From Sphingopyxis sp. QXT-31 (GTDB lineage: Bacteria > Pseudomonadota > Alphaproteobacteria > Sphingomonadales > Sphingomonadaceae), in assembly GCF_001984035.1 (NCBI RefSeq), contig NZ_CP019449.1, forward strand, positions 3,224,001 through 3,288,000: DNA of 64,000 nt, given 5' to 3'. The notes under the pieces were generated by a model. That model saw only the letters and a program-made list of their open reading frames with translations. It made no database searches and was not told the origin of the DNA. Shown piece by piece: positions 3,258-23,015 of the stretch. The translations under genes were made by a program, and so were the position numbers. How positions within the stretch are numbered: position 1 is the first letter of the stretch; the number at the start of each line of letters is the position of its first letter.

Positions 3258-3770
3258 ATGGGAATAGCGCCAACCCCTTTCGATCCCGATGCCCCGGACG
3301 GCGGACGACGTGCGCTCATAAGGCGCAATCCCGAGGATGAAAATGAGGTCGAAATGGTCGAGGCGGTCTGGGGAAGCGATCCGCGTTTCTCGGACGGCGT
3401 CAATTTCCGCTTCGTCCGCTCCGAAGGCCGCGTCTTTCCGAAGCGCCGCTGCCTGATCCCGGCGTCTGAGTTCCGCATGGGCACCGGCGACCACAGGTAC
3501 AGGGTCACGCTCGACAGCGGTAATTTCTTTTATCTTGCCGCCATCTGGGATCCCCCGCTTGCCGACTGGCCGCTCTCCTACCGGATCCTCACCATCCCGG
3601 CCGGCGCGGACGTGCTTCCCTACCAGACGCGGCACGGCGTTATCGTCGAGCGGCGCAACGTCATGCACTGGCTCGATGGCACGCAGCCCAACGAGGTGCT
3701 GTTCGAAGAGCCGCCGCGCCACACGTTTTTCGTCGAGCCTCTTCGCGCGCAAGCCGATCTGCCACTGTGA
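3258..3770 (+). CDS. Degenerate SRAP-like protein lacking the catalytic cysteine
   Basis: 170 residues from ATG 3258. The fold signature of SRAP is recognisable: VWGSDPRF, VRSEGRVFPKRRCLIPA, a LAAIWD strand, LTIPAG and RHGVIVERRNVMHWL. The chemistry is not: there is no Cys2 (the protein starts MGIAPT), the Asn of the NxRSE motif is Phe52, and the position of the catalytic Glu is Met74. Only the His (His126) is kept. An in-frame extension to 3195 also lacks MC at the start and would read through the LexA box. It shares the SOS promoter with a canonical SRAP and overlaps the AlkB gene by 4 bp. It may bind DNA without crosslinking it. Confidence 0.75.
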   Translation: MGIAPTPFDPDAPDGGRRALIRRNPEDENEVEMVEAVWGSDPRFSDGVNFRFVRSEGRVFPKRRCLIPASEFRMGTGDHRYRVTLDSGNFFYLAAIWDPPLADWPLSYRILTIPAGADVLPYQTRHGVIVERRNVMHWLDGTQPNEVLFEEPPRHTFFVEPLRAQADLPL

Positions 3771-4357
3771 CAACGCAAAGCTTGGATCGCACCATGCCCG
3801 GGTGCCAAGCCGATCTGTTCGGCACGTCGCTTCCTGCCGGTCTTAGCTACTGCAATGACTTCGTCGCTCCCGGTGAGGAGCAAAGTCTGATCGCCCTTGT
3901 CGAAGCGGCAAATCTTACCCCGTTCCAGTTCCAACTATGGGAAGGAAAGCGGCTTACCCGCTCGTTCGGCTGGACCTACGATTTCCAGACAGGCCGCTTT
4001 GCGCCGGGCGACCCCATTCCCGCGTGGCTCGAACCGCTCCGCGAACGCGCCGCAGACTTTGCCGGTCTCCCAAACACCGCTCTCGAGCAGGCGCTCCTCA
4101 TCCAATACGGGATCGGTGCCGGGATCGGCTGGCACAAAGATCGCCCGGTCTTCGAGAATGTGATCGGCGTGTCGCTCGGATCGACGGCCACCATGCGCTA
4201 TCGTCGTAGATGCGCCGACCGGTTCGAGCGCCGCACGGCCGAACTCGCGCCACGCTCGATCTATCATATGCAGGGCGAGATTCGCGACGAGTGGGAACAC
4301 AGCATTGCGGCGATGCCGACCCCGCGCTGGTCGATCACGTTTCGCAGCCTTCGATGA
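3767..4357 (+). CDS. AlkB-type 2-oxoglutarate/Fe(II) dioxygenase
   Basis: 196 residues, starting in the ATGA overlap with the SRAP-like gene. The iron-binding triad is visible as His123-x-Asp125 (GWHKDRP) and His178 (EWEHSI); Arg187 and Arg193 form the R-x5-R pair (RWSITFR) that binds 2-oxoglutarate. The LIQYGIGAGIGWHKD and PRSIYHMQGEIRDEWEHSI blocks place it in the AlkB family, which repairs alkylated bases by oxidative demethylation. Its position behind a LexA-controlled promoter suggests SOS induction, unlike E. coli alkB, which is under Ada. Substrate preference cannot be read from the sequence. Confidence 0.9.
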   Translation: MTTQSLDRTMPGCQADLFGTSLPAGLSYCNDFVAPGEEQSLIALVEAANLTPFQFQLWEGKRLTRSFGWTYDFQTGRFAPGDPIPAWLEPLRERAADFAGLPNTALEQALLIQYGIGAGIGWHKDRPVFENVIGVSLGSTATMRYRRRCADRFERRTAELAPRSIYHMQGEIRDEWEHSIAAMPTPRWSITFRSLR

Positions 4358-4810: not shown

Positions 4811-4859
4811 TTGCTTCCAAATTTCATGAAAATATGATTTTATAGTTTCATGAAATTTG
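4811..4859 (+). promoter_or_regulatory. Promoter with 14-bp perfect inverted repeat, likely autoregulatory operator
   Basis: CAAATTTCATGAAA (4818-4831) and TTTCATGAAATTTG (4846-4859) are exact inverted copies separated by 14 bp. Each arm contains the self-palindrome TTTCATGAAA. The arms bracket a candidate -10 TATGAT (4833-4838) with TTGCTT (4811-4816) 16 bp upstream. The right arm contains the ATG at 4850. The expected transcription start, near 4845, would leave almost no leader. The downstream protein is ribbon-helix-helix-like, a class that binds such paired sites. Confidence 0.7.
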
Positions 4860-5047
4860 ACGAAACGACGGGCGGTGGCGATGACGAGCATCTCCAAATT
4901 CAAGTCCCTGCGGCGACCAAACGCGATCTCGGTCAGCGTGCGCTTGATACCCGTGAGCCGCTCCGTATGGTCGTACTGAGGGCGTTGGCAGCCTACGGCG
5001 TGACAGTGCCGGAGGGCGCGATCACCGATCGACGGAAACGCAGCTAA
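4850..5047 (+). CDS. Small ribbon-helix-helix-like protein, probable autorepressor
   Basis: 65 residues. After an acidic Gly/Asp-rich start, residues 14-50 (strand LQIQVP, helix AATKRDLGQRALDTRE, then PLRMVVLRALAAYG) follow the strand-helix-helix pattern of ribbon-helix-helix proteins; the assignment rests on this pattern only. The start codon lies inside a perfect inverted repeat, so the product may repress its own operon. The following gene starts at 5047, sharing the last base of the stop codon (TAATG). There is no Shine-Dalgarno sequence, in keeping with a leaderless transcript. Confidence 0.65.
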   Translation: MKFDETTGGGDDEHLQIQVPAATKRDLGQRALDTREPLRMVVLRALAAYGVTVPEGAITDRRKRS

Positions 5048-6222
5048 TGGCCGACGACTTCGAAGCGTTGACCATCGATCAATATGTTCGCGAGGCAGCG
5101 CGGACCGATCAACGCAAGGGTCCAGGGACGATCGGCTTTACGATGCTGGGTCTGGTCGGCGAAACCGGCAGCCTACTCGCCGAAGCCAAGAAGAAGCAGC
5201 GAGATGCCGCGTCCTATCTGGGCTACGCCGAGGCGGTCGCCGAGGAGATTGGCGATGTGCTCTGGTATCTCGCCGCGGTTGCGCGCCGACATCGGCTAGC
5301 GCTGAGCGACATCGCAGCCGCCGCGCTGGTCGCCGACGGCGTCTACCGCGCCGGGGCCAATGCCGCCCTCAGTTTGCACGCGCTGCAACCAGCGCATATG
5401 CCGCTCGCCAAGGCACCGATGCCGAAGTTCGAGCATGGGCTGCTGGGACTGGCAGGCGAGGTCGGACTCCTGGCCCGCGACATCGACGGCGCCGGTCAGC
5501 CGGGCCACCGCGCAGCCGTGGCCCAGAGTATGGTGGCGATCATGCGCCGTTTGATCCAAGCCGCCACTGATTCCGGCGTTACGCTGGAAGGGGCCGCCAT
5601 CAAGAATCTCCAGAAGATATTCGACCGCTGGCCCCGCGAACGGCAATATCCTCCAGCGTTCGACGAGAGTAACGATGCCGAGGAACAACTTCCGCGGACG
5701 ATGGAAGTCGACGTTTATGAGCGCACGGTGCGCGGGCAAGTCTATGTCTACCAGCGCTCGCGCGGCGTATATGTCGGGGATCGGCTGACCGATAACGCCA
5801 TGGAACCGGACGATTATCGGTTCCACGACGTCTTCCACTATGCCTATGTCGCGGTGCTAGGCTGGTCGCCTGTCATTCGTGCGTTGCTCCGACTCAAGCG
5901 AAAGAGCGACCCCAAGCTGGACGACGCCGAGGATGGTGCTCGGGCTATACTGATCGAGGAAGGGGTAACGTCTTGGCTATTCGGACAGGCCCAGCAGCTC
6001 AATTTCTTCGAAGGCGTGAAGCCAGGTGGACTTCCGCTGGACATGCTCAAACATGTTCGCCAATTCGTCGCCGGCTACGAGGCTGACCGCTGCCCGCTAT
6101 GGCTCTGGGAGGAGGCAATTCTCCAAGGCTACGCGGCTTTTCGTTTCCTCCAGAAGAACCGACGGGCGCGAATCGGTATCGATTTCGCCCGCCGCCGCTT
6201 GCGTATCAAGGAGTTGCCGTGA
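5047..6222 (+). CDS. MazG-like nucleotide pyrophosphohydrolase domain plus unassigned C-terminal domain
   Basis: 391 residues. Residues 30-85 carry a MazG-like all-alpha core: LVGETGSLLAEAKK (Glu39) and AVAEEIGDVLWYLAAVA (Glu67, Asp70), matching the metal-binding ExxE...ExxD arrangement. A second, weaker copy (HGLLGLAGEVGLLARDI, residues about 129-145) appears to have lost its second acidic pair. From about residue 210 to the end comes a region I cannot assign, with YRFHDVFHYAYVAVLGWSPV, ILIEEGVTSWLFGQAQ and a basic C-terminus. MazG-type enzymes hydrolyse (d)NTPs to monophosphates, so control of a nucleotide pool is plausible. It is coupled on both sides: 1-bp overlaps with the RHH-like and glycosylase genes. 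Confidence 0.7.
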   Translation: MADDFEALTIDQYVREAARTDQRKGPGTIGFTMLGLVGETGSLLAEAKKKQRDAASYLGYAEAVAEEIGDVLWYLAAVARRHRLALSDIAAAALVADGVYRAGANAALSLHALQPAHMPLAKAPMPKFEHGLLGLAGEVGLLARDIDGAGQPGHRAAVAQSMVAIMRRLIQAATDSGVTLEGAAIKNLQKIFDRWPRERQYPPAFDESNDAEEQLPRTMEVDVYERTVRGQVYVYQRSRGVYVGDRLTDNAMEPDDYRFHDVFHYAYVAVLGWSPVIRALLRLKRKSDPKLDDAEDGARAILIEEGVTSWLFGQAQQLNFFEGVKPGGLPLDMLKHVRQFVAGYEADRCPLWLWEEAILQGYAAFRFLQKNRRARIGIDFARRRLRIKELP

Positions 6223-6923
6223 TGACCCCCAAAAGCTTTGTAACGGCGCTCGCGGCTGCTGACCTGCCCTCGGTCTTCAATCCATGGCGCGATCGATGCT
6301 CGATCCATGATCGTCGCGATGCGGCCGCCCGACGCCGGGCCAATCTGGAGGGTGTAATCGCTGCCGCGCTCGACGCGCGCGTGGAGACGATCTGGATCGC
6401 CCGCGACCTTGGCTATCGCGGCGGCCGCAGGACCGGCGTGCCGCTCACCGACGAGGTGCATCTGACCCATGCCGCCGCGCTGATGGGCGGCATAGCGCTG
6501 GAGCGCGCCACCGAGGGACCGGCGATCGCCGAGCGCACGGCCGCGATCGTCTGGCAGGTGCTGAGCCGGATCGGCCAGCCGGTGATGCTCTGGAACGTGT
6601 TTCCCTTCCATCCGCACGAAGCGGACGATCCAATGTCCAATCGCTGCCACACGCGCGCCGAGCGCGAAGCGACTTGGCCCCTGTTGCAGGCGCTGGTGTC
6701 GATGCTTCAACCCAAGCGGATCATCGCGATTGGCCGCGACGCCCATCTGGCGCTCGACGGGCTCGACATTCCGACCACCGCTATCCGTCATCCGAGCTAT
6801 GGCGGTCAGCGCGAGTTTATCGATGGTATGTTCGACCTGTACGGCATCGCCAACACCCCTCGCGCGCCTGAACTTCCGCTCGAACCGCGCTATGCGGCCG
6901 CTGCGACCTGCGCATTGGCCTGA
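6222..6923 (+). CDS. Uracil-DNA glycosylase superfamily protein
   Basis: 233 residues from ATG 6222, whose A is the last base of the preceding stop. The family blocks are present in order: FNPWRDRC (19-26), IWIARDLGYRGGRRTG (57-72, the position of the GEAPG catalytic loop in family 4/5 enzymes, here with RDLG), NVFPFHPHE (125-133), KRIIAIGRDA and the DNA-intercalation loop HPSYGG (190-195). Glycosylases of this superfamily remove uracil or modified bases from DNA. Its target here is unknown. The gene overlaps the convergent thymidylate-synthase-like gene by 34 bp, so the two operons meet tail to tail. Confidence 0.78.
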   Translation: MTPKSFVTALAAADLPSVFNPWRDRCSIHDRRDAAARRRANLEGVIAAALDARVETIWIARDLGYRGGRRTGVPLTDEVHLTHAAALMGGIALERATEGPAIAERTAAIVWQVLSRIGQPVMLWNVFPFHPHEADDPMSNRCHTRAEREATWPLLQALVSMLQPKRIIAIGRDAHLALDGLDIPTTAIRHPSYGGQREFIDGMFDLYGIANTPRAPELPLEPRYAAAATCALA

Positions 6924-7672
6924 TCGCAGGCCGCAAGCAGCGCCTTGATGTCGGTCCGGTTCCATTTGTCAGTGTCGATTGTTGCATGAGTGGACAGGAT
7001 CGTCAGCGGCCCTGGCGCGATCCCCGCTTCGGCGGCGACGAATGCCATCAATCGGCCGAGACCGATCAGATTGCCGAGCAGCTTTTCGATATAATAGTGG
7101 TTCCGGTACATCGCGGTCAGCGCCAGCCTCCGGTTGCTGCCGTCGCCGATCGGCTTGAAGCTCGCGAAGCTGAGGCACTGGCCGCCATAGGGTGAATCAT
7201 CGACGTCGCGCGCGGGATCGAACACGCTAAGTTCGAACTTGTTGAGCGCGCTGATCGATGGATCCTTGAGGCGGCGGATGATGTCCGTCAGCTGGTTGAT
7301 CGGTTCGCCTTTGAGCTGTGGCAGCTGCATCATCCGCTCGAAATAGTAGCCCGACCACCGATCACCTTTGTTGCGCACCTTCGGCAAGACATTGTCTCGG
7401 AAGCGGTCGAAGAAGAGCGGCGATCCGTATCGGTGATAGAGGGCGGCCGGGAAGATCGTGTTGGCAACGGTCTCGATGCGCTTGGCGCCGTGCTTGCTGA
7501 AAAATTCGTCGACGGCTGAGACCACCGGATCGGCGAGGCTGGCCCGCGCGAGCGGATTAGCCACGTCGATGACGACATTGAAATCGTGATGGCCTGGCCG
7601 GGCATCAACGAGCGCGACGGCTTCACGCCAGGCGGATACGCAATCAGGCTGCGGCGGAATGGGAAGGTACAT
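6890..7672 (-). CDS. Thymidylate-synthase-like protein
   Basis: 260 residues. The C-terminal half matches the ThyA core: GGQCLSFASF places Cys166 at the catalytic cysteine, RRLALTAMYRNHYY carries Arg190 at the YQRS phosphate-binding arginine, and LTILSTHATID puts His229 at the nucleotide-binding histidine. The His after the catalytic Cys (PCH in ThyA) is Leu, and the FNIxSY segment that reads the pyrimidine is not conserved, so the substrate is probably not plain dUMP. Such TS-like enzymes can act on modified pyrimidine nucleotides; a non-catalytic role is also possible. It starts 29 bp inside the C1 protease gene and is last in its operon. Confidence 0.7.
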   Translation of the reverse strand: MYLPIPPQPDCVSAWREAVALVDARPGHHDFNVVIDVANPLARASLADPVVSAVDEFFSKHGAKRIETVANTIFPAALYHRYGSPLFFDRFRDNVLPKVRNKGDRWSGYYFERMMQLPQLKGEPINQLTDIIRRLKDPSISALNKFELSVFDPARDVDDSPYGGQCLSFASFKPIGDGSNRRLALTAMYRNHYYIEKLLGNLIGLGRLMAFVAAEAGIAPGPLTILSTHATIDTDKWNRTDIKALLAACDQANAQVAAAA

Positions 7673-8315
7673 CGATCTCTTCCGTTAGGATCGCCGTCGC
7701 GAACAAGCGCGGCTTCAGGAACTTCTCGGTGAGCCAAGCATGGCCTGCAACGCCCCAGCCGACACCCCAGCTGTTGCGCACCAAAATCGCGCTCTGCCCG
7801 TCGGCAAGGCCATGGCCAACCGCGAGGATCGCGTGGCGCAGGCTGGCATCGGGCATCTCGTCATTCGCTGGATCGACCAATCCCTCGCCGGTCGGCTGGA
7901 AAAAAGAGGCCGACAAGGTGGACAGCAGAAGCACTGGTCGGTTGGCATCGAGTGAAGCCAGAATCGAAGAGAAATCGAGAGTGGCAGTACCGCCTTTCCG
8001 ACCGAAGCACGGTCCGGCCATGGCGGGCGGCGCCCACTGATCGCCCGGCACGATGTCGAGATAGGGCCACCCGCTTTCGGCAGGCTGTCCGTCTAGCCGC
8101 AGCGCATCAAGCATCGTGGATAGCGTTGCGCCCTGATCGGCTGCGCGGCGGCCGCGGCGCTGGGCATGGAAATAGGCATATTCGCAAGAGAGCGGCGTAC
8201 CATCGCGCAAAGCGGCGTGTCCATCGCTCGCGGCGAAGGCGAGGCAAGTCGGCCGCGCGCCCTGATCGCGCACCGGCCCGAGCAGGTGCCGAAGATCAGT
8301 CTTGATTGCGATCAT
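7644..8315 (-). CDS. Papain-family (C1) cysteine protease, cytoplasmic, without propeptide
   Basis: 223 residues. The full C1 catalytic set is present: Gln18 (oxyanion) and Cys24 in GPVRDQGARPTCLAFAAS, His161 in LRHAILAVGHG and Asn181 in LVRNSWGVGWG. There is no signal peptide, and the catalytic domain starts about 10 residues from the N-terminus, so there is no room for the inhibitory propeptide that keeps papain-like zymogens silent. The protease should therefore be active on folding unless another protein restrains it. The gene directly upstream encodes a chagasin-like domain, the inhibitor fold specific for C1 proteases. Spacing to that gene is 5 bp. Confidence 0.85.
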   Translation of the reverse strand: MIAIKTDLRHLLGPVRDQGARPTCLAFAASDGHAALRDGTPLSCEYAYFHAQRRGRRAADQGATLSTMLDALRLDGQPAESGWPYLDIVPGDQWAPPAMAGPCFGRKGGTATLDFSSILASLDANRPVLLLSTLSASFFQPTGEGLVDPANDEMPDASLRHAILAVGHGLADGQSAILVRNSWGVGWGVAGHAWLTEKFLKPRLFATAILTEEIDVPSHSAAA

Positions 8316-8320
8316 GCTTG

Positions 8321-9331
8321 TTAGGCCGCCTCAAGGAGATGACGCCGTTCGGCGCGGGAAAGGCCTTCCTGCTCCGGGCCGGTAAGATCGAAGTCGATCG
8401 TAAAGTTGGCATGCGCGGCCGCTGGCTGCCAAGGACGCCGTTCGTTGAGCGACATGCGACCGCGCCCTGCTGCTTCAGCTGCTGCGGTGACACGGCGAAC
8501 GACCGGCCCACCGATCGCTTCGGCATCGAACGCTTCGCGCTCATCGCGCACCACGGCAAAGCCGCTCGCGATCAGCTGGTCGAGATCCCAAAGATAGCCA
8601 CCGCCGCTATGCTCCTTGAGACGCAGCACGAACAGATCATTGCGACTGCCGTCGAGGCGCACGCCTTGGTCGTGCTCGGTAAGCAGCCAGACATCGCCTC
8701 GATAATTTTCGGGGCGATAATCCTTGAGCAAATCCACCTTAAGGCTCCGGGGCTTGGTGTCGAGAAGCTCGCGCATGATCGTATCTGAGATGAGATCGTA
8801 GCGGACCAATGTACGGCAGGTCGCCTCGTAGCTGGCGCCGATGCGCAGCGAGAGCTGATAAGCGACATTTGGTCGGCGGAGGTCGGCGACGGTCCAGCCC
8901 TGCCGTGCGCAATGCTGGGCGATGAGCCATTTGGGCATCATGAAGGCGATCGCGAACGCATCCGCCTCGGTTTCCTGGAACTGGTTCCCAGGTTCCGGGC
9001 TCATCGGCATTCGGCGCAGAATGCTCTCGTCGTCGAGGCTCGGTTCGTGCCGCATCGAGAAATGTCCCAGCTCATGCGCGGCAGTAAAACGCTGAATACT
9101 CATCGGCCGTTCGGTCGTCACCAGCACGCCGGGTGCCGGTTCACTGAGATAGGCTCCGAGCAGGCCCTTGAGCGGGCGCAACAGCAGCGGCAGGTCGAGC
9201 GCATGGATCGCGCCAAACACATCCACGTTGCCGCCATGTTGTTCGATCAGAGCTTGGGTGCCTAGCTGGCGATGAAGGCGGCCCGCCGCCATCACGCCTG
9301 CCCGGACAGCGCTGGTATAGTCGCGCGCCAC
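8321..9331 (-). CDS. ImmA/IrrE-type metalloprotease with C-terminal chagasin-like (I42) domain
   Basis: 336 residues. The N-terminal two thirds is an ImmA/IrrE zinc peptidase: AAHELGH (His86, Glu87, His90) and FQETEADAFAIAFMMP (third zinc ligand near Glu122), with a helical region to about 200. Residues about 212-315 contain the three loops that define chagasin inhibitors, in order: HSGGGYLW (241-248, for NPTTGY/W), EAIGGPVVRRV (271-281, for the GxGG loop) and RRPWQP (298-303, for RPWE). The neighbour 5 bp downstream is a C1 protease, the natural target of that fold. ImmA partners cleave XRE repressors, and an XRE gene lies 3 bp upstream. I infer a regulated inhibitor. Confidence 0.8.
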   Translation of the reverse strand: MARDYTSAVRAGVMAAGRLHRQLGTQALIEQHGGNVDVFGAIHALDLPLLLRPLKGLLGAYLSEPAPGVLVTTERPMSIQRFTAAHELGHFSMRHEPSLDDESILRRMPMSPEPGNQFQETEADAFAIAFMMPKWLIAQHCARQGWTVADLRRPNVAYQLSLRIGASYEATCRTLVRYDLISDTIMRELLDTKPRSLKVDLLKDYRPENYRGDVWLLTEHDQGVRLDGSRNDLFVLRLKEHSGGGYLWDLDQLIASGFAVVRDEREAFDAEAIGGPVVRRVTAAAEAAGRGRMSLNERRPWQPAAAHANFTIDFDLTGPEQEGLSRAERRHLLEAA

Positions 9332-9334
9332 GGC

Positions 9335-9712
9335 TCAGGCCGCCTTGCCCGACGATCGCGCCCTCAGATATTCGGCAAAGCGGCCAAGTTCGGCGCGATC
9401 CTCAATCGACAGGTCGACGACGCGCCGCGCTAGATGGGCGACATCGGCCGGTAAGCTCGCCGACGCCTCGTCCTCGCCGGTGAAATAGGCAACGGACTGT
9501 CGATAGAGCTTGGCGAGGCGCGTGAGTTCGATCGCCTCCACACGACGTTGACCGCTCTCGATGTCCGTCAAAGCCGTGCGCGGTATCTTGAGATAGCTAG
9601 CCACCTCGTCCTGCTTCAGGCCCAGATATTTCCGCGCTTCGCGCAATCGGTCGCCCAGCCGGCGCCGCTCAGCCTCGTCATCGGCCGACTGCCCCAGCGA
9701 CAATTGTGTCAC
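9335..9712 (-). CDS. XRE-family helix-turn-helix regulator
   Basis: 125 residues from a GTG at 9712 that overlaps the stop of the upstream gene (GTGA). A longer in-frame reading to 9853 has no family-like sequence and overlaps that gene. Residues 18-75 form a standard XRE domain: RLREARKYLGLKQDEVASYLKIPRTALTDIESGQRRVEAIELTRLAKLY. The C-terminal helices (DVAHLARRVVDLSIEDRAELGRFAEYLR) resemble those of regulators paired with ImmA/IrrE proteases. The perfect palindrome at 10086-10104 in the operon promoter is the likely operator. Confidence 0.85.
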   Translation of the reverse strand: MTQLSLGQSADDEAERRRLGDRLREARKYLGLKQDEVASYLKIPRTALTDIESGQRRVEAIELTRLAKLYRQSVAYFTGEDEASASLPADVAHLARRVVDLSIEDRAELGRFAEYLRARSSGKAA

Positions 9713-10047
9713 GGCTTGACTCCCTTCTTCTTGATCCAGACCTTTTCGATACGGGGCACCAGATGCCCGAGCGCGTCCTCGACCGAGACATAGCCGCCGG
9801 TCTGAACGATATTGTCGCGCAACTCGAAGCCGATCACCGCCTCGATCGCACACAGCGTGTCGACTATCGAGAGAGAATCGAGGGGCACCGGCGCATTCCT
9901 GGCGCCAGCTTCATCCTGCGGAAGCGAGATGCCTCGCAATTGTGCCTCAGTGCGGGCGACCTCAAGCAATTCGTCGACCAATGCCTTGATGACATCGTTC
10001 TTCGGAAAGGCGGTAATCGTCGGAACGGGGGGAGCAATAGTCGCCAT
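9709..10047 (-). CDS. Acyl-carrier-protein-like small protein
   Basis: 112 residues from ATG 10047, with GAGG 7 bases upstream. Residues 56-100 follow the carrier-protein pattern: PLDSLSIVDTLCAIEAVIGF, ELRDNIV, then a loop and SVEDALGHLVPRI. Ser58 in D-S-L is where the phosphopantetheine arm is attached in ACPs, and helix II and helix III signatures follow at the right spacing. The N-terminal 15 residues are Pro/Thr-rich. No ketosynthase, adenylation or phosphopantetheinyl transferase gene is nearby, so a biosynthetic role is unlikely. It is first in the operon and overlaps the XRE gene by 4 bp. Function is unknown. Confidence 0.6.
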   Translation of the reverse strand: MATIAPPVPTITAFPKNDVIKALVDELLEVARTEAQLRGISLPQDEAGARNAPVPLDSLSIVDTLCAIEAVIGFELRDNIVQTGGYVSVEDALGHLVPRIEKVWIKKKGVKP

Positions 10048-10079: not shown

Positions 10080-10108
10080 CTTATAATGTCGGAAATTCCG
10101 ACATGCAA
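10080..10108 (-). promoter_or_regulatory. Promoter with 19-bp palindromic operator filling the -35/-10 spacer
   Basis: On the minus strand TTGCAT (10108-10103), 17 bp, TATAAG (10085-10080). The palindrome ATGTCGGAAATTCCGACAT (10086-10104, 9-bp arms around one base) fills the whole spacer, so a bound repressor would block polymerase completely. It drives the ACP-like, XRE, ImmA-chagasin, C1 protease and TS-like genes. The XRE protein is the obvious candidate to bind it. Confidence 0.75.
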
Positions 10109-18656: not shown

Positions 18657-21600
18657 TCAGGCGGCCTTGCGGTCGCTGACCCGCTCGATCGGAAACCGAT
18701 CGACGAGCCGGGCGAACACATCGGCGCCAGCAGCCCCTGCCGGCACGTAGAGCTTCAATTTCCACGAGACGATCTCCGAAATCAAGCCAAATGCCTTCAG
18801 CCGCTCGATACCCAGATCGTTGAAACCGGTAAGCTCGATCCGCCAGTCGTTCATGGCCCGGACGCGCGCGACGCGCTGACCCTCAGCGAGGTGGAAAACG
18901 GCATCGCCCGCGAGCAACATCGACCAGGCTTGTTCGGCCGACAGCTTCGGCGGCCCGTCATCGACGATCCGAGCGGCCCATGCGGGCGATACGCGGCGGC
19001 CGATCACGCGCTCGCCAGCATCGGTCTGCAGGCGGTAGACCCGTGTCGACTCGTTCGGCAGGCTGCGCCAGATCGGCAACAGGAGCCCCGAGACCATATG
19101 GAGCGTGCCGGTTTCATATTCAGGAAGCTCTCGAAGTTCGGCTTCCCACGCCGCGGTAAACGCCTCCGCATCGACGATAGTCCAGTGGCTCGCCCCGAAT
19201 TGCTCGGCGAGGATCAGTACAGTCTCCATCGGGCGGATCAGGCGGAAGCGGCGATGCACCGCACCCTCGTCGTCGACGAGGCTGCGCGCGCGCAGCTTGA
19301 CCGCTGCCCGGCCCGAACGCCCGTTCACCAGCAACGCCGCTTCTTCAGCCCGAGCGAGATCGAGCACCTTGCCGAGCGAGAGCGGGACGACGCGGTCAAT
19401 CCGGTCGATCGTCAGAAGCTGAGTCTCGGCGCCGGTGCCGGGATGGGTGTAGATCGTCCGGCGATCGGTGACGATGAAGCTCTCGGCGCGCAGCGTCTCG
19501 AGGCCGACCTCATAGCTGCCCGCCGCGATCGCCGCCTCGACCCGGGCGACGAGCAGCCCCTCGAACGCGTCGAACAGGATATTCTGTAGGTCGATGGTGA
19601 GCGCGAGCATGCGGTTGAGGAAGGTGGTGATCGGCGGCAGTTCGTCGCGAATCCCGCCTTCGGCATCGAGCAGCGACAGCCCGGTCGCGGCCTCGAAGCA
19701 GAGCAGCGAGCAGCCCTCCACCTTGCCGCGCACGATCAGCATGTAGAGCTGGCGGAGCGCGTCGCGGGCATAGAAGGATTCCAGATTGTCGTGCGCGCTG
19801 AACATATTCTGGCCGCCCGTCTGCCGCTGCCCCCGCGTGATCGCGCCCATCGTGTCGAGCCGCCGCGCGATCGTCGAGATGAAGCGCTTCTGCGCTTTCA
19901 CGTCGGTCGATACCGGGCGGAACATCGGCGGCTGCCTCTGGTTCGTGCGGTTCGTGCGCCCGAAGCCCTGGATCGCGGCATCGGCCTTCCAGCCCGCCTC
20001 GAGCAGATAGTGGATACGGCGGCGCTGGTTCTTCGCGCCAAGGTCGGCATGATAGGAGCGCCCGGTGCCGCCGGCTTCCGAAAAGACGAGAATTCGCTTC
20101 TCATCGTCCATGAAAGCATGGGTCTCGCCGACATTGGCGCTGCCCGGACGGTTCTCGACCGCGAAACGGACGTCGCCACTCTCGCGGGCCCGCGGCACGA
20201 TCCGCCGCGAGCGCCCCGTCACCTCGGCCACCATAGCGGTCCCGAAATGCTGGACGATCTGGTCGAGCGCGCCCGGCACGGGCGGCAGCGACGCCAGCTT
20301 CTCGATCATCGCGTCGCGGCGCCGACAGGCTTCGCGGCTGACGATCATATTGCCGTCGCCGTCATAGGCCGGGCGCGACGACAGATTGCCGTCGCCGTCG
20401 GTGCAGGGCTCGAAGAGCTGGACCGGGAAGCTCGACGCAAGATAGTCGAGCACATATTCGCGCGGCGTGATGTCGACCGACACATCGTTCCACTCGTCCG
20501 CCTGGATCTCGGCCAGCCGCCGCTCCTGCAGCGCCTCGCCGGTCGAGACAATCTGAACGACCGCCGCATGGCCCGCCTCAAGATCGCGCGCGATGCTCGC
20601 GATCGCGCTCGGCGTCTGCATCGCGGTGATGAGATGGTTGAAAAAGCGCTGCTTGGTGCTCTCGAACGCCGATCGCGCCGCCGACTTGGCCTGGGCATTC
20701 AATGTGCCATGTTCTGCGCTCGTCACCCCCGCCGCCTCCATCGCGGCATTGAGATTATTGTGGATGACCTGGAAGGCGGCGGCATAGCTGTCGTAGATGC
20801 GCCGTTGTTCGCCCGTCAGCGCATGTTCGAGCAGCTCATATTCGACGCCGTCGAAGGAGAGCGAACGCGACGCGTAAAGGCCGAGCGCCTTCAGGTCGCG
20901 CGCGAGCACTTCCATCGCCGCAACCCCGCCGTCCTCGATCGCCGCGACGAAATCGGCACGCGATGCGAAGGGGAAATCACTGCCGCCCCAGAGACCCAGA
21001 CGCTGCGCATAAGCGAGGTTCTGAACCGTCGTGGCACCCGTCGCCGAGACATAGACGATGCGCGCCTCGGGAAGCGCATGTTGGAGGCGAAGCCCGGCAC
21101 GGCCTTGCTGCGAAGGCTTCTGATCGCCGCGTTCGCCCTTCCCACCCGCGGCATTGGCCATCGCATGGGCTTCATCGAAGATGATGACGCCGTCGAAGTC
21201 GCGGCCGAGCCATTCGACGATCTGCTCGATCCGGCTCGCCTTCCCCTCGCGCCCTTGCGAACGCAATGTCGCATAGGTGGTGAAGAGAATGGCCTCGCCG
21301 AGCTTCACCGGTGCCCCCTGCCGGAAGCGCGACAGCGGCGTGACGAGCAATTTCTCCTGCCCCAGCGCCGACCAGTCGCGCTGCGCGTCTTCGAGCAGCT
21401 TGTCCGACTTCGAGATCCAGAGCGCACGGCGGCGGCCTTTCAGCATATTATCGAGAATGATGCCCGCGACCTGCCGGCCTTTGCCCGCGCCGGTGCCGTC
21501 GCCGAGGAACCAGCCGCGCCGGAACTGCACCGCGCCTTCCGCGTCATCGGATGCGGCGCCGACGACGTCCCAGGTGGCATCGACCGTCCACGCACCCGAG

Positions 21601-23015
21601 AGATGCCCGCCATGGGCTTCGCCCGCATAGATGATCGATTCAAGCTGCGCGTCGGACAGCACGCCTTCGCTGACGAGATGCGCCGGCAGATGCGGTCGAT
21701 AGACAGGCTTGGGGGGCGCGACCGATGCCATCGAGGCCGACTGGACGAGCGCGGTGGGATGCGGCCTCGCCCCGGGAATGGAGAGCGATTGAAGTGCATA
21801 GGGCTCGTAGATCGTGTCGCCGAGCTGGCCCTCGGGCGGCACCCAGTCCAATGTTTCATAGCCAAGCTCGACGCCGGCATCGCCGGGCGGCGCAGCCTTT
21901 GCCGAAGCCCGGGCACATGCGTCATCAACATTCGCCGTCGCTCGGGCCTGCACCGCCGTCGCCGGTGCAACGGGCAAAGCGGGCGGTGCCGGGCGCGGCG
22001 GCAGATCCTCCTCGACCCATTGGAGCAATGTGGCAAGGTCGGGGGCTTCGCCGCGGCTTTGTGGAAGCTGCGCGGGATCGCCCGCGGGAACCTTGTCGAT
22101 CACGATGAGGCGGGTGGGTATCGTCGTGCCATGCCTGGCGAAGACCTTGCCGGCGATCGCCGCCGAGAAACGAAGCGTGGCGCTTTCCTGCAAGCGGATG
22201 AAGGCGCCGCGCCATGCCGGCGCCTCAGGCGAGCAGCCGGCACCCACGATGGCGACAAGCCGGCCGCCGTCTTTCAGCCGCGCCAGCGCCGAGGCGATGT
22301 GACGAAGCGCCGCGCCCTTCATCTTGCGATCGACATTCACGAGTGAGGAGAATGGCGGGTTGATCAGAACGACATCGGGCGCGACCCCAGGATCGAGCCG
22401 GTCGTCGATCGCCGCGGCATCGTGACGGCTGACCAGCGTCGGCGCGAAGAGCAGCTCGAGCAAGCCCGCGCGCAGTTCGGCGAATTCGTTGAGCGCGAGC
22501 GTCGCGCCGGCAAGACCCGCGTGCACGGCGAGCATTCCCGTCCCCGCCGAGGGCTCGAGCACGCAATCGCCGGGCCGGATCGCGGCAGCGAAAGCGGCGA
22601 CGAAGGCGAGCGGCAGCGGGGTCGAGAATTGCTGGAAGGACTGCCCCTCCTCGGAGCGCCGCGTCTGGGTCGGGACACGCGCCGCGATGCGCTGCCACAT
22701 GGCGAGCTGGCGCTGCGGCGCGCGGCCGCGAGCGGCCAGCGCGCGCCCGTAGCGGCGCAGCAGCAGGACCTGCGCCGCCTCGCACGCATCATAAGCCATC
22801 TTCCAGTCCCATGCGCCCTCGGCATCGGTCTGGCCGTAGGCCGACGTCATCGCGATCCGGAGCTGCCCGGTGTCGAAGGGCGTTCCGTCCTCGAGCAGCG
22901 GAAGAAGGCGCTGGGCCGCATCGAAGAGCCGCGCCGCAGGGGTGGCCGCAGGTGAGGAAAGAGATGAGGCAATGGGGGCGGCGCCGGCTTCGGCGTCGGG
23001 CAAAATGGTTCGCAT
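18657..23015 (-). CDS. Giant SAM-methyltransferase / strawberry-notch-type helicase fusion
   Basis: 1,452 residues. Residues about 115-330 form an N6-adenine-type methyltransferase: LEPSAGTGMLAVHAGLAGA (SAM-binding) and VLINPPFSS (NPPF catalytic motif). A superfamily-2 helicase of the strawberry-notch family follows: GWFLGDGTGAGKGRQVAGIILDN (Walker A), VIIFDEAHAMANAAGGKG (DEAH), YVSATGATTVQNLAYAQRLGLWG, and the C-terminal GRSYHADLGAKNQRRRIHYLLEAGWKAD.AIQGFGRTNRTNQ (motif VI). These bifunctional proteins are typical of large plasmids and ICEs and may modify or protect element DNA. Start MRTILPDAE at 23015. Confidence 0.88.
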   Translation of the reverse strand: MRTILPDAEAGAAPIASSLSSPAATPAARLFDAAQRLLPLLEDGTPFDTGQLRIAMTSAYGQTDAEGAWDWKMAYDACEAAQVLLLRRYGRALAARGRAPQRQLAMWQRIAARVPTQTRRSEEGQSFQQFSTPLPLAFVAAFAAAIRPGDCVLEPSAGTGMLAVHAGLAGATLALNEFAELRAGLLELLFAPTLVSRHDAAAIDDRLDPGVAPDVVLINPPFSSLVNVDRKMKGAALRHIASALARLKDGGRLVAIVGAGCSPEAPAWRGAFIRLQESATLRFSAAIAGKVFARHGTTIPTRLIVIDKVPAGDPAQLPQSRGEAPDLATLLQWVEEDLPPRPAPPALPVAPATAVQARATANVDDACARASAKAAPPGDAGVELGYETLDWVPPEGQLGDTIYEPYALQSLSIPGARPHPTALVQSASMASVAPPKPVYRPHLPAHLVSEGVLSDAQLESIIYAGEAHGGHLSGAWTVDATWDVVGAASDDAEGAVQFRRGWFLGDGTGAGKGRQVAGIILDNMLKGRRRALWISKSDKLLEDAQRDWSALGQEKLLVTPLSRFRQGAPVKLGEAILFTTYATLRSQGREGKASRIEQIVEWLGRDFDGVIIFDEAHAMANAAGGKGERGDQKPSQQGRAGLRLQHALPEARIVYVSATGATTVQNLAYAQRLGLWGGSDFPFASRADFVAAIEDGGVAAMEVLARDLKALGLYASRSLSFDGVEYELLEHALTGEQRRIYDSYAAAFQVIHNNLNAAMEAAGVTSAEHGTLNAQAKSAARSAFESTKQRFFNHLITAMQTPSAIASIARDLEAGHAAVVQIVSTGEALQERRLAEIQADEWNDVSVDITPREYVLDYLASSFPVQLFEPCTDGDGNLSSRPAYDGDGNMIVSREACRRRDAMIEKLASLPPVPGALDQIVQHFGTAMVAEVTGRSRRIVPRARESGDVRFAVENRPGSANVGETHAFMDDEKRILVFSEAGGTGRSYHADLGAKNQRRRIHYLLEAGWKADAAIQGFGRTNRTNQRQPPMFRPVSTDVKAQKRFISTIARRLDTMGAITRGQRQTGGQNMFSAHDNLESFYARDALRQLYMLIVRGKVEGCSLLCFEAATGLSLLDAEGGIRDELPPITTFLNRMLALTIDLQNILFDAFEGLLVARVEAAIAAGSYEVGLETLRAESFIVTDRRTIYTHPGTGAETQLLTIDRIDRVVPLSLGKVLDLARAEEAALLVNGRSGRAAVKLRARSLVDDEGAVHRRFRLIRPMETVLILAEQFGASHWTIVDAEAFTAAWEAELRELPEYETGTLHMVSGLLLPIWRSLPNESTRVYRLQTDAGERVIGRRVSPAWAARIVDDGPPKLSAEQAWSMLLAGDAVFHLAEGQRVARVRAMNDWRIELTGFNDLGIERLKAFGLISEIVSWKLKLYVPAGAAGADVFARLVDRFPIERVSDRKAA

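Follow-up and report, generated by a model that had tools for sequence, protein, structure and literature searches.

The window, which here means the whole analyzed stretch of 64,000 nucleotides from Sphingopyxis sp. QXT-31 (contig NZ_CP019449.1, forward-strand positions 3,224,001 to 3,288,000), contains a seven-gene cassette in which an ImmA/IrrE-type metalloprotease with a C-terminal chagasin (I42) domain is followed by a papain-family (C1) protease (Table 1). The cassette also includes a carrier-like protein, a thymidylate-synthase-like protein (TSL), a uracil-DNA-glycosylase-like (UDG-like) protein and a MazG/MazG_C protein. Behind a conserved palindrome, the genes for the carrier-like protein, the XRE repressor, ImmA/I42, C1 and TSL follow each other in this order, and the UDG-like gene, with the MazG/MazG_C gene before it, runs toward them from the other side. 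The C1 reading frame starts 5 bases past the stop codon of the fusion, the C1 and TSL genes share 29 bases (7644-7672), and the TSL and UDG-like genes overlap tail to tail (6890-6923). It is evident from the sequence that the I42 domain resides on the ImmA protein and that the palindrome is followed by a single predicted operon with conserved gene content.

Table 1. Positions in the window of the cassette genes and of the features associated with them.
Feature	Position	Strand	Basis
65-aa small ORF before MazG	4850..5047	+	no family match
MazG + MazG_C protein	5047..6222	+	MazG_C 1.1e-79; MazG 7.9e-4, under its cut-off; alignment
Uracil-DNA-glycosylase-superfamily-like protein, convergent, start inferred	6219..6923	+	Pfam UDG, alignment
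Thymidylate-synthase-like protein (TSL), 260 aa	6890..7672	-	TIGR03283, Foldseek of model
C1 (papain-family) protease, 223 aa, without propeptide, Q18/C24/H161/N181	7644..8315	-	Pfam, alignment, PDB profile
ImmA/IrrE (M78) metalloprotease with C-terminal chagasin (I42) domain; HELGH at 86-90, I42 at about 212-315, C-terminal tail ...LLEAA	8321..9331	-	Pfam, PDB profile, alignments
XRE repressor, stop at 9335, GTG start placed at 9712 by comparison with homologues	9335..9712	-	Pfam HTH_3/HTH_31, PADLOC, alignment
Acyl-carrier-like protein, invariant Asp-Ser, first gene of predicted operon	9709..10047	-	alignment; weak Pfam/PDB matches
Palindrome TGTCGGAAATTCCGACA, candidate XRE operator	10087..10103	.	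genome/window scans, comparison of upstream regions

A preliminary description of this DNA had proposed that an ImmA/IrrE protease is fused to a chagasin-like domain and lies beside an XRE repressor gene, but had missed the seven-gene cassette around them. The coordinates and the reading frame given there for the fusion are correct, and both of its parts exceed the curated Pfam cut-offs, with Peptidase_M78 at residues 78-175 (E 6.6e-10) and Inhibitor_I42 at residues 230-312 (E 2.1e-9, 38 bits against a curated cut-off of 27.2). The M78 part contains the HExxH domain, and the XRE gene lies directly upstream of the fusion. In a single-sequence search of the PDB the top matches were an IrrE orthologue (8slm, 4.2e-4) and amoebiasin-2 (3m86, 4.6e-4), and a 13-row profile of the fusion matched amoebiasin-2 (E 1.1e-10), CapP (3.8e-7), IrrE (9.3e-7) and chagasin (0.011). 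By profile comparison, the C-terminal domain is thus of the chagasin type rather than an unrelated one. Its three loops follow each other in the expected order (GYxW; G-rich; RPW), as had been reported, and are conserved parts of the domain in a 12-row alignment, in which nine columns are invariant, among them G41, Y42 and W44 of the first loop and G70 of the second, and in which P96 and W97 of the third loop are nearly so. The protein database is rich in homologues of the fusion: of 7996 candidates scored, 2056 reach E <= 0.001 (the top 120 were listed). In one of these homologues, P0085, an HTH and an ImmA part are joined in a single chain.

The neighboring protease possesses the Gln-Cys-His-Asn set and the papain fold of the C1 family, and its profile matched PDB chains with a best E of 7.5e-21. 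Gln18, Cys24, His161 and Asn181 are invariant in 12/12 aligned orthologues and in all 46 rows that cover them. The signal peptide and I29 propeptide of the typical zymogen layout, which are not defining for the family, appear to be lacking: the stretch ahead of the oxyanion Gln is 17 residues long, too short to hold an I29 propeptide. This bears out the earlier statement that an adjacent C1 protease has an intact catalytic set and lacks a propeptide, and C1 is a predicted cytoplasmic protease with a full catalytic set. By sequence comparison, the occurrence of the fusion beside such a C1 gene is far beyond chance.

How closely the chagasin loops and C1 go together was counted in 114 loci with 89 distinct ImmA strings, one of which is empty (L123, L127 and L128 are without ImmA). 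These loci include repeats (L014 holds the window's protein, and L124 and L082 seem to stem from the same contig), and distinct counts are hence given as well. L001, L094-L097 and L133-L143, which duplicate longer loci, and L098-L117, which have weak TS-like matches, had been excluded before. Of 99 loci whose ImmA tail contains GYxW, 98 have a C1 gene (75 distinct ImmA strings), the exception, L079, ending before the C1 place; since the genome loci were picked by likeness to the fusion, only this C1 half of the association is informative in them. This count follows an earlier suggestion, to see how often a C1 protease is adjacent to homologous fusions; those with the loop motif almost always have one. 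In the other direction, the GYxW motif is found in 98/98 loci with C1 (75 distinct) versus 0/12 without C1, and a loose pattern for the third loop in 96/98 versus 1/12. Pfam I42 was matched by 12/12 tails from loci with C1 (E <= 1) versus 0/8 tails of the rhizobial/cyanobacterial type from loci without it, and also by none in L118, the only scanned one of four Streptomyces-type proteins without C1. Homology of the rhizobial/cyanobacterial-type tail to I42 was not detected, and this tail was rejected as an I42 homologue. The Streptomyces-type tails are half-domain relatives of I42 without the loops (hhalign 74%, E 2.8e-5).

The latter tails would permit the view that the I42 domain had another job and that it either guards against a different C1 peptidase or by now serves ImmA merely in a structural role or in binding DNA or a ligand. 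We think that this is highly improbable, as the inhibitory loops belong to the most conserved parts of the domain and their motif was found only where C1 adjoins or the contig ends.

In a TSL tree, a single branch (support 100/96) separates the loci with C1 from those without, so that the match between loops and C1 represents one event. The tree holds 58 rows, thinned from the 80 distinct TSL rows that scored at least 150 bits; L005 and L149, which have both C1 and kinase, fall below this score and are absent from it. The tree carries a warning, as two long branches, L008 and L148, meet. Independent gains of C1 were not seen in the tree, which needs one change, and as read from these sequences the history is one gain or loss of C1 that was followed by long co-retention, not repeated co-evolution. 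As all 12 cassettes without C1 keep XRE, ImmA and TSL, C1 together with the loops has the look of a single module that can be removed, and the C1-free sister version provides a natural control. The joint absence of loop motif and C1 in these 12 sister cassettes lends support, if of a partial kind, to the proposal of the preliminary description that the chagasin domain silences C1. We infer, with good support, that the I42 domain cages the neighboring C1, which is the best-supported mechanistic step.

For a structural view, I42 and C1 were modelled as one read-through chain, which gave a pTM of 0.73 in an arrangement that by itself forces two domains together. The five models are uneven (mean pLDDT 80.1, 76.6, 68.2, 63.3 and 59.4), with the linker under 50, and the I42 part is strand-rich with a pLDDT of mostly about 75-80. 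The fold lists of the model are filled by papains; no chagasin row stands among the rows shown, which are all papain-family chains and thus uninformative on the fold of the I42 domain. Of the 50 VIA rows shown, two (3ois and 1xkg) start within I42, at residues 31 and 36 of the model, next to the first loop; such a range reports no more than the first and the final aligned residue.

The palindrome TGTCGGAnnnTCCGACA lies about 40-56 bases ahead of the first cassette gene. In the whole genome the exact sequence occurs once, a second site differs from it at one position, and a backwards-read control gave one site per strand; within the window, 0.28 matches with up to two mismatches are expected by chance, and 27/100 shuffles had at least one. 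Similar palindromes were found in 66/73 distinct upstream regions versus 5/1460 shuffled controls, with a scoring consensus that came from the same loci, and the relatives display symmetry-keeping changes on both arms, for example ATGTCTGA...TCAGACAT. The palindrome is a likely operator of XRE.

In the PADLOC models, ImmA is best matched by capP (1.3e-13), and XRE by RmrA (9.5e-12), which is slightly better by E-value than capH (1.4e-11), the values for XRE being those of the longer ORF 9335-9853. The same pairing of an XRE repressor with an M78 protease is known from the CapH/CapP regulator of CBASS and also from ImmR/ImmA and DdrO/PprI; CapP is not only the best PADLOC match of ImmA but also the best M78 match of the fusion profile in the PDB, and capH is near-best for XRE. 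The cassette differs from CapH/CapP in that its ImmA bears a chagasin domain and that the operon holds C1, TSL and a carrier-like protein instead, and no CD-NTase or CBASS effector model was matched among the eight window proteins scanned. RosmerTA likewise combines HTH and ImmA domains in RmrA, whereas XRE and ImmA are separate genes here and have other partners; its RmrT was not matched among the same eight proteins. Assignment to a known PADLOC system was rejected, as the matches obtained were only of the capP/capH/RmrA/PDC-M69 type, apart from those to general HTH models and a marginal one to PtuA. CapP and PprI are described as proteases that are activated by ssDNA and cut their own repressors (PMC10904395, PMC10233336). 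By homology to CapH/CapP, together with the conserved palindrome, it is plausible that XRE and ImmA form the trigger.

We propose that in the resting state XRE would repress the operon, and the three loops of the neighboring I42 domain would block any C1 that is made. A DNA-damage or ssDNA signal would activate ImmA as in CapH/CapP, ImmA/ImmR and PprI/DdrO, leading to cleavage of XRE and derepression of the operon. C1 could then be freed through a shape change of ImmA, a self-cut or degradation of the inhibitor, which is the least certain of these steps. Free C1 might cut host or invader proteins, and the TS-like, UDG-like and MazG proteins would act on nucleotides or modified DNA.

As to the release of C1, some bacteria use an Ala-Ala tail as a degron for ClpXP, and the LLEAA tail of the inhibitor resembles such a degron. 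Among distinct ORFs, 56/69 of ImmA/I42, 47/71 of C1 and 31/67 of TSL end with AA, compared with 34/535 background ORFs (>=200 codons); the ending is found in 0/12 ImmA ORFs from cassettes without C1, and two TSL ORFs from such cassettes (L118, L119) do end with AA. The tails of C1 and TSL overlap other genes and were rejected as proof of a degron in these two proteins; the ImmA tail of the window is free of overlap. The AA tail may point to a labile inhibitor. The AA endings of ImmA/I42, C1 and TSL (window positions 8321-8335, 7644-7660 and 6890-6905) represent a possible degron or common cleavage mark.

Alternatively, C1 could work within the signalling chain and cut XRE, ImmA or another cassette protein, while I42 merely tunes it. 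C1, XRE and ImmA do occur in one predicted operon, and the AA endings that ImmA/I42, C1 and TSL often have in common could mark them for joint cleavage or degradation. We nevertheless consider this quite unlikely, as XRE/ImmA pairs exist without C1 both in the 12 sister cassettes and in CapH/CapP.

Of the other cassette proteins, TSL matches TIGR03283 with an E of 9.3e-10 and 38 bits, where the equivalog cut-off is 175, and Pfam TS was matched in 3/11 TSL members (best E 0.0023). The comparison of the TSL profile with a true TS profile gave 53% and an E of 1.4e-4, and its search against PDB sequences chance matches only. The TSL model is confident (pLDDT 91, pTM 0.91), Foldseek matches it best to thymidylate synthases and to a CMP hydroxymethylase (E about 2e-9 to 5e-9), and an invariant Cys is located at the TS catalytic place. 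By fold only, TSL would be a pyrimidine enzyme of the TS superfamily; an ordinary thymidylate synthase was rejected, as the TIGR03283 match is far under the equivalog cut-off and Foldseek ranks CMP hydroxymethylase high as well. The UDG-like protein stays just under the Pfam UDG cut-off (5.2e-5, 23.8 bits against 24.3). Within the window's first 20 kb, a profile built for this analysis (HMUDK_hel) found no 5-hmdU DNA kinase. Some relatives carry an annotated small ORF at the same place before MazG as the window does.

The carrier-like protein has a weak PP-binding match in 4/12 members (Pfam, best E 0.015), and also its PDB matches are weak, the best chain named acyl carrier protein reaching an E of 0.0075. 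Papain-fold acyltransferases that act on carrier proteins exist (BtrH), and the papain-fold enzyme of the cassette could be an acyl or aminoacyl transferase that is gated by I42 and transfers a group from the carrier protein to a nucleotide or modified base. This would account for the carrier-like first gene with its invariant Asp-Ser, for a holo-ACP synthase/phosphopantetheinyl transferase gene that lies beside the cassette in 6/19 annotated plasmid regions (4/12 with C1 and 2/7 without), and for the remaining genes, which by family act on nucleotides or modified bases. However, in the annotated plasmid cassettes without C1 the first gene is named acyl carrier protein in 4/7 and encodes a small unnamed protein in 3/7, which argues that the carrier needs no C1, although the ACP profile made from cassettes with C1 had no match in those without it. 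C1 moreover resembles true cathepsins with the full peptidase set, and I42 domains are known as peptidase blockers, which makes a transferase an unlikely reading in our opinion.

The fusion was matched in 17 plasmid records, 11 of which are predicted to be conjugative; they include plasmids from alphaproteobacteria, a haloarchaeon and Burkholderia. Thirteen of the 17 were examined, the 13th, from Streptomyces laculatispora, through its TSL match, and of the genome contigs the best 80 of 325 relatives, chosen by likeness to the fusion, were kept. TSL is rare in the sampled genomes, with 6/385 of the class (E <= 1e-15) and 4/398 of the phylum (E <= 1e-12), one of the latter weakly. The order small protein, XRE, ImmA/I42, C1 and ~260-aa protein is shared by 12/12 plasmid regions, the last protein being annotated in pieces in L005 and L013. 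UDG is annotated opposite in nine of these and present as a UDG-profile ORF in a tenth (L012), with none in L005 and L008, and MazG is found by profile in 9/12 (not in L005, L008 and L010). Where the contig reaches, the order is kept in 94 profile-scanned sequences, with broken or lacking copies for example in L052, L077, L005, L008 and L010. In L005, L013, L038 and L077 the TSL profile matches two separate ORFs and the gene looks interrupted, and one ORF of L052 (9726-10826) matches both the C1 and the TSL profile as a possible deletion fusion. The weak TS-like matches of L098-L117, in ORFs of about 490-790 aa from several families of the phylum, perhaps represent another TS-like family.

The C1-free sister cassettes, found by the TSL search, occur among others in Streptomyces, cyanobacteria, two rhizobia and two viral contigs, and 11/12 have MazG. 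All 12 match the HMUDK_hel profile for 5-hmdU DNA kinases, as do four cassettes with C1 (L005, L008, L148 and L149), where it should be considered that this profile was partly built from several of the same matched proteins; Pfam PF18723 names the 5-hmdU kinase in all three proteins scanned (L118, L005 and L008). As four loci with C1 also carry the kinase, C1 and kinase are not strict alternatives. The set of TS-like, UDG-like, MazG and kinase genes is suggestive, by predicted function, of modified pyrimidines. One scan of viral contigs gave no relative and another gave two contigs with C1-free cassettes, the IMG/VR contigs L131 and L132, which bear the 5-hmdU kinase. A phage origin of the cassette was rejected, as TSL had no match in 50,697 phage records and ImmA one partial match.

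Among the open full-text literature matches listed there was no description of the fusion or the cassette, in line with the earlier remark that no described system with this fusion is known. The chagasin/ICP (I42) inhibitors contain the same domain and loops, here with a C1 protease alongside; the matched solved chains, with 105-132 residues, lack a protease domain, whereas here the domain is joined to a metalloprotease whose operon is linked to a repressor, and the protease that it presumably targets is free of a propeptide. Bacterial I42 domains are mostly known as stand-alone inhibitors. With respect to nucleotide modification, the DefensePredictor study reports TS and 5-hmdU kinase domains that were validated as anti-phage and MazG and MazG-C domains that were predicted, and it names UDG in the legend of the predicted-systems figure (PMC13092281). 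Compared by text and legends, as distinct from figures such as Fig. 6F, its main text contains no ImmA, chagasin or papain (PMC13092281).

The cassette may be part of a self-defence system that is not yet described. Our main reading, to which we give a probability of roughly 0.6, is that the cassette is mobile and serves in conflict or defence, and that a single protein would be both switch and safety catch, with its I42 domain silencing C1. If this is true, a chagasin domain belonging to an inducible switch would cage a papain-family protease in trans, which would give bacterial I42 domains a role, in a compact cassette that resides on many genomes and on plasmids, mostly (11/17) predicted to be conjugative. 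More tentatively, and at clearly less than even odds, the cassette could represent a new class of protease-triggered immunity, in which an ImmA-chagasin sensor-antitoxin cages a propeptide-free cytosolic papain effector and is coupled to a nucleotide modification of the 5-hydroxymethyluracil type with its own carrier protein, modified DNA or glycosylase damage arming the switch. This would join two ideas, the ssDNA-sensing ImmA/XRE switches and defence by nucleotide modification.

Some further genes were observed in the surroundings. A 2OG-Fe(II) oxygenase (PF13532) is encoded at window positions 3770-4354, before the MazG end of the cassette, and a Strawberry-notch-type helicase (AAA_34 + Helicase_C_4) at 18660-23015; a strawberry-notch-like annotated gene is also located near the cassette on the L006 plasmid. 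Several cassettes lie near other defence-type genes, namely those for caspase-like, Shedu, AbiEii and SIR2 proteins.
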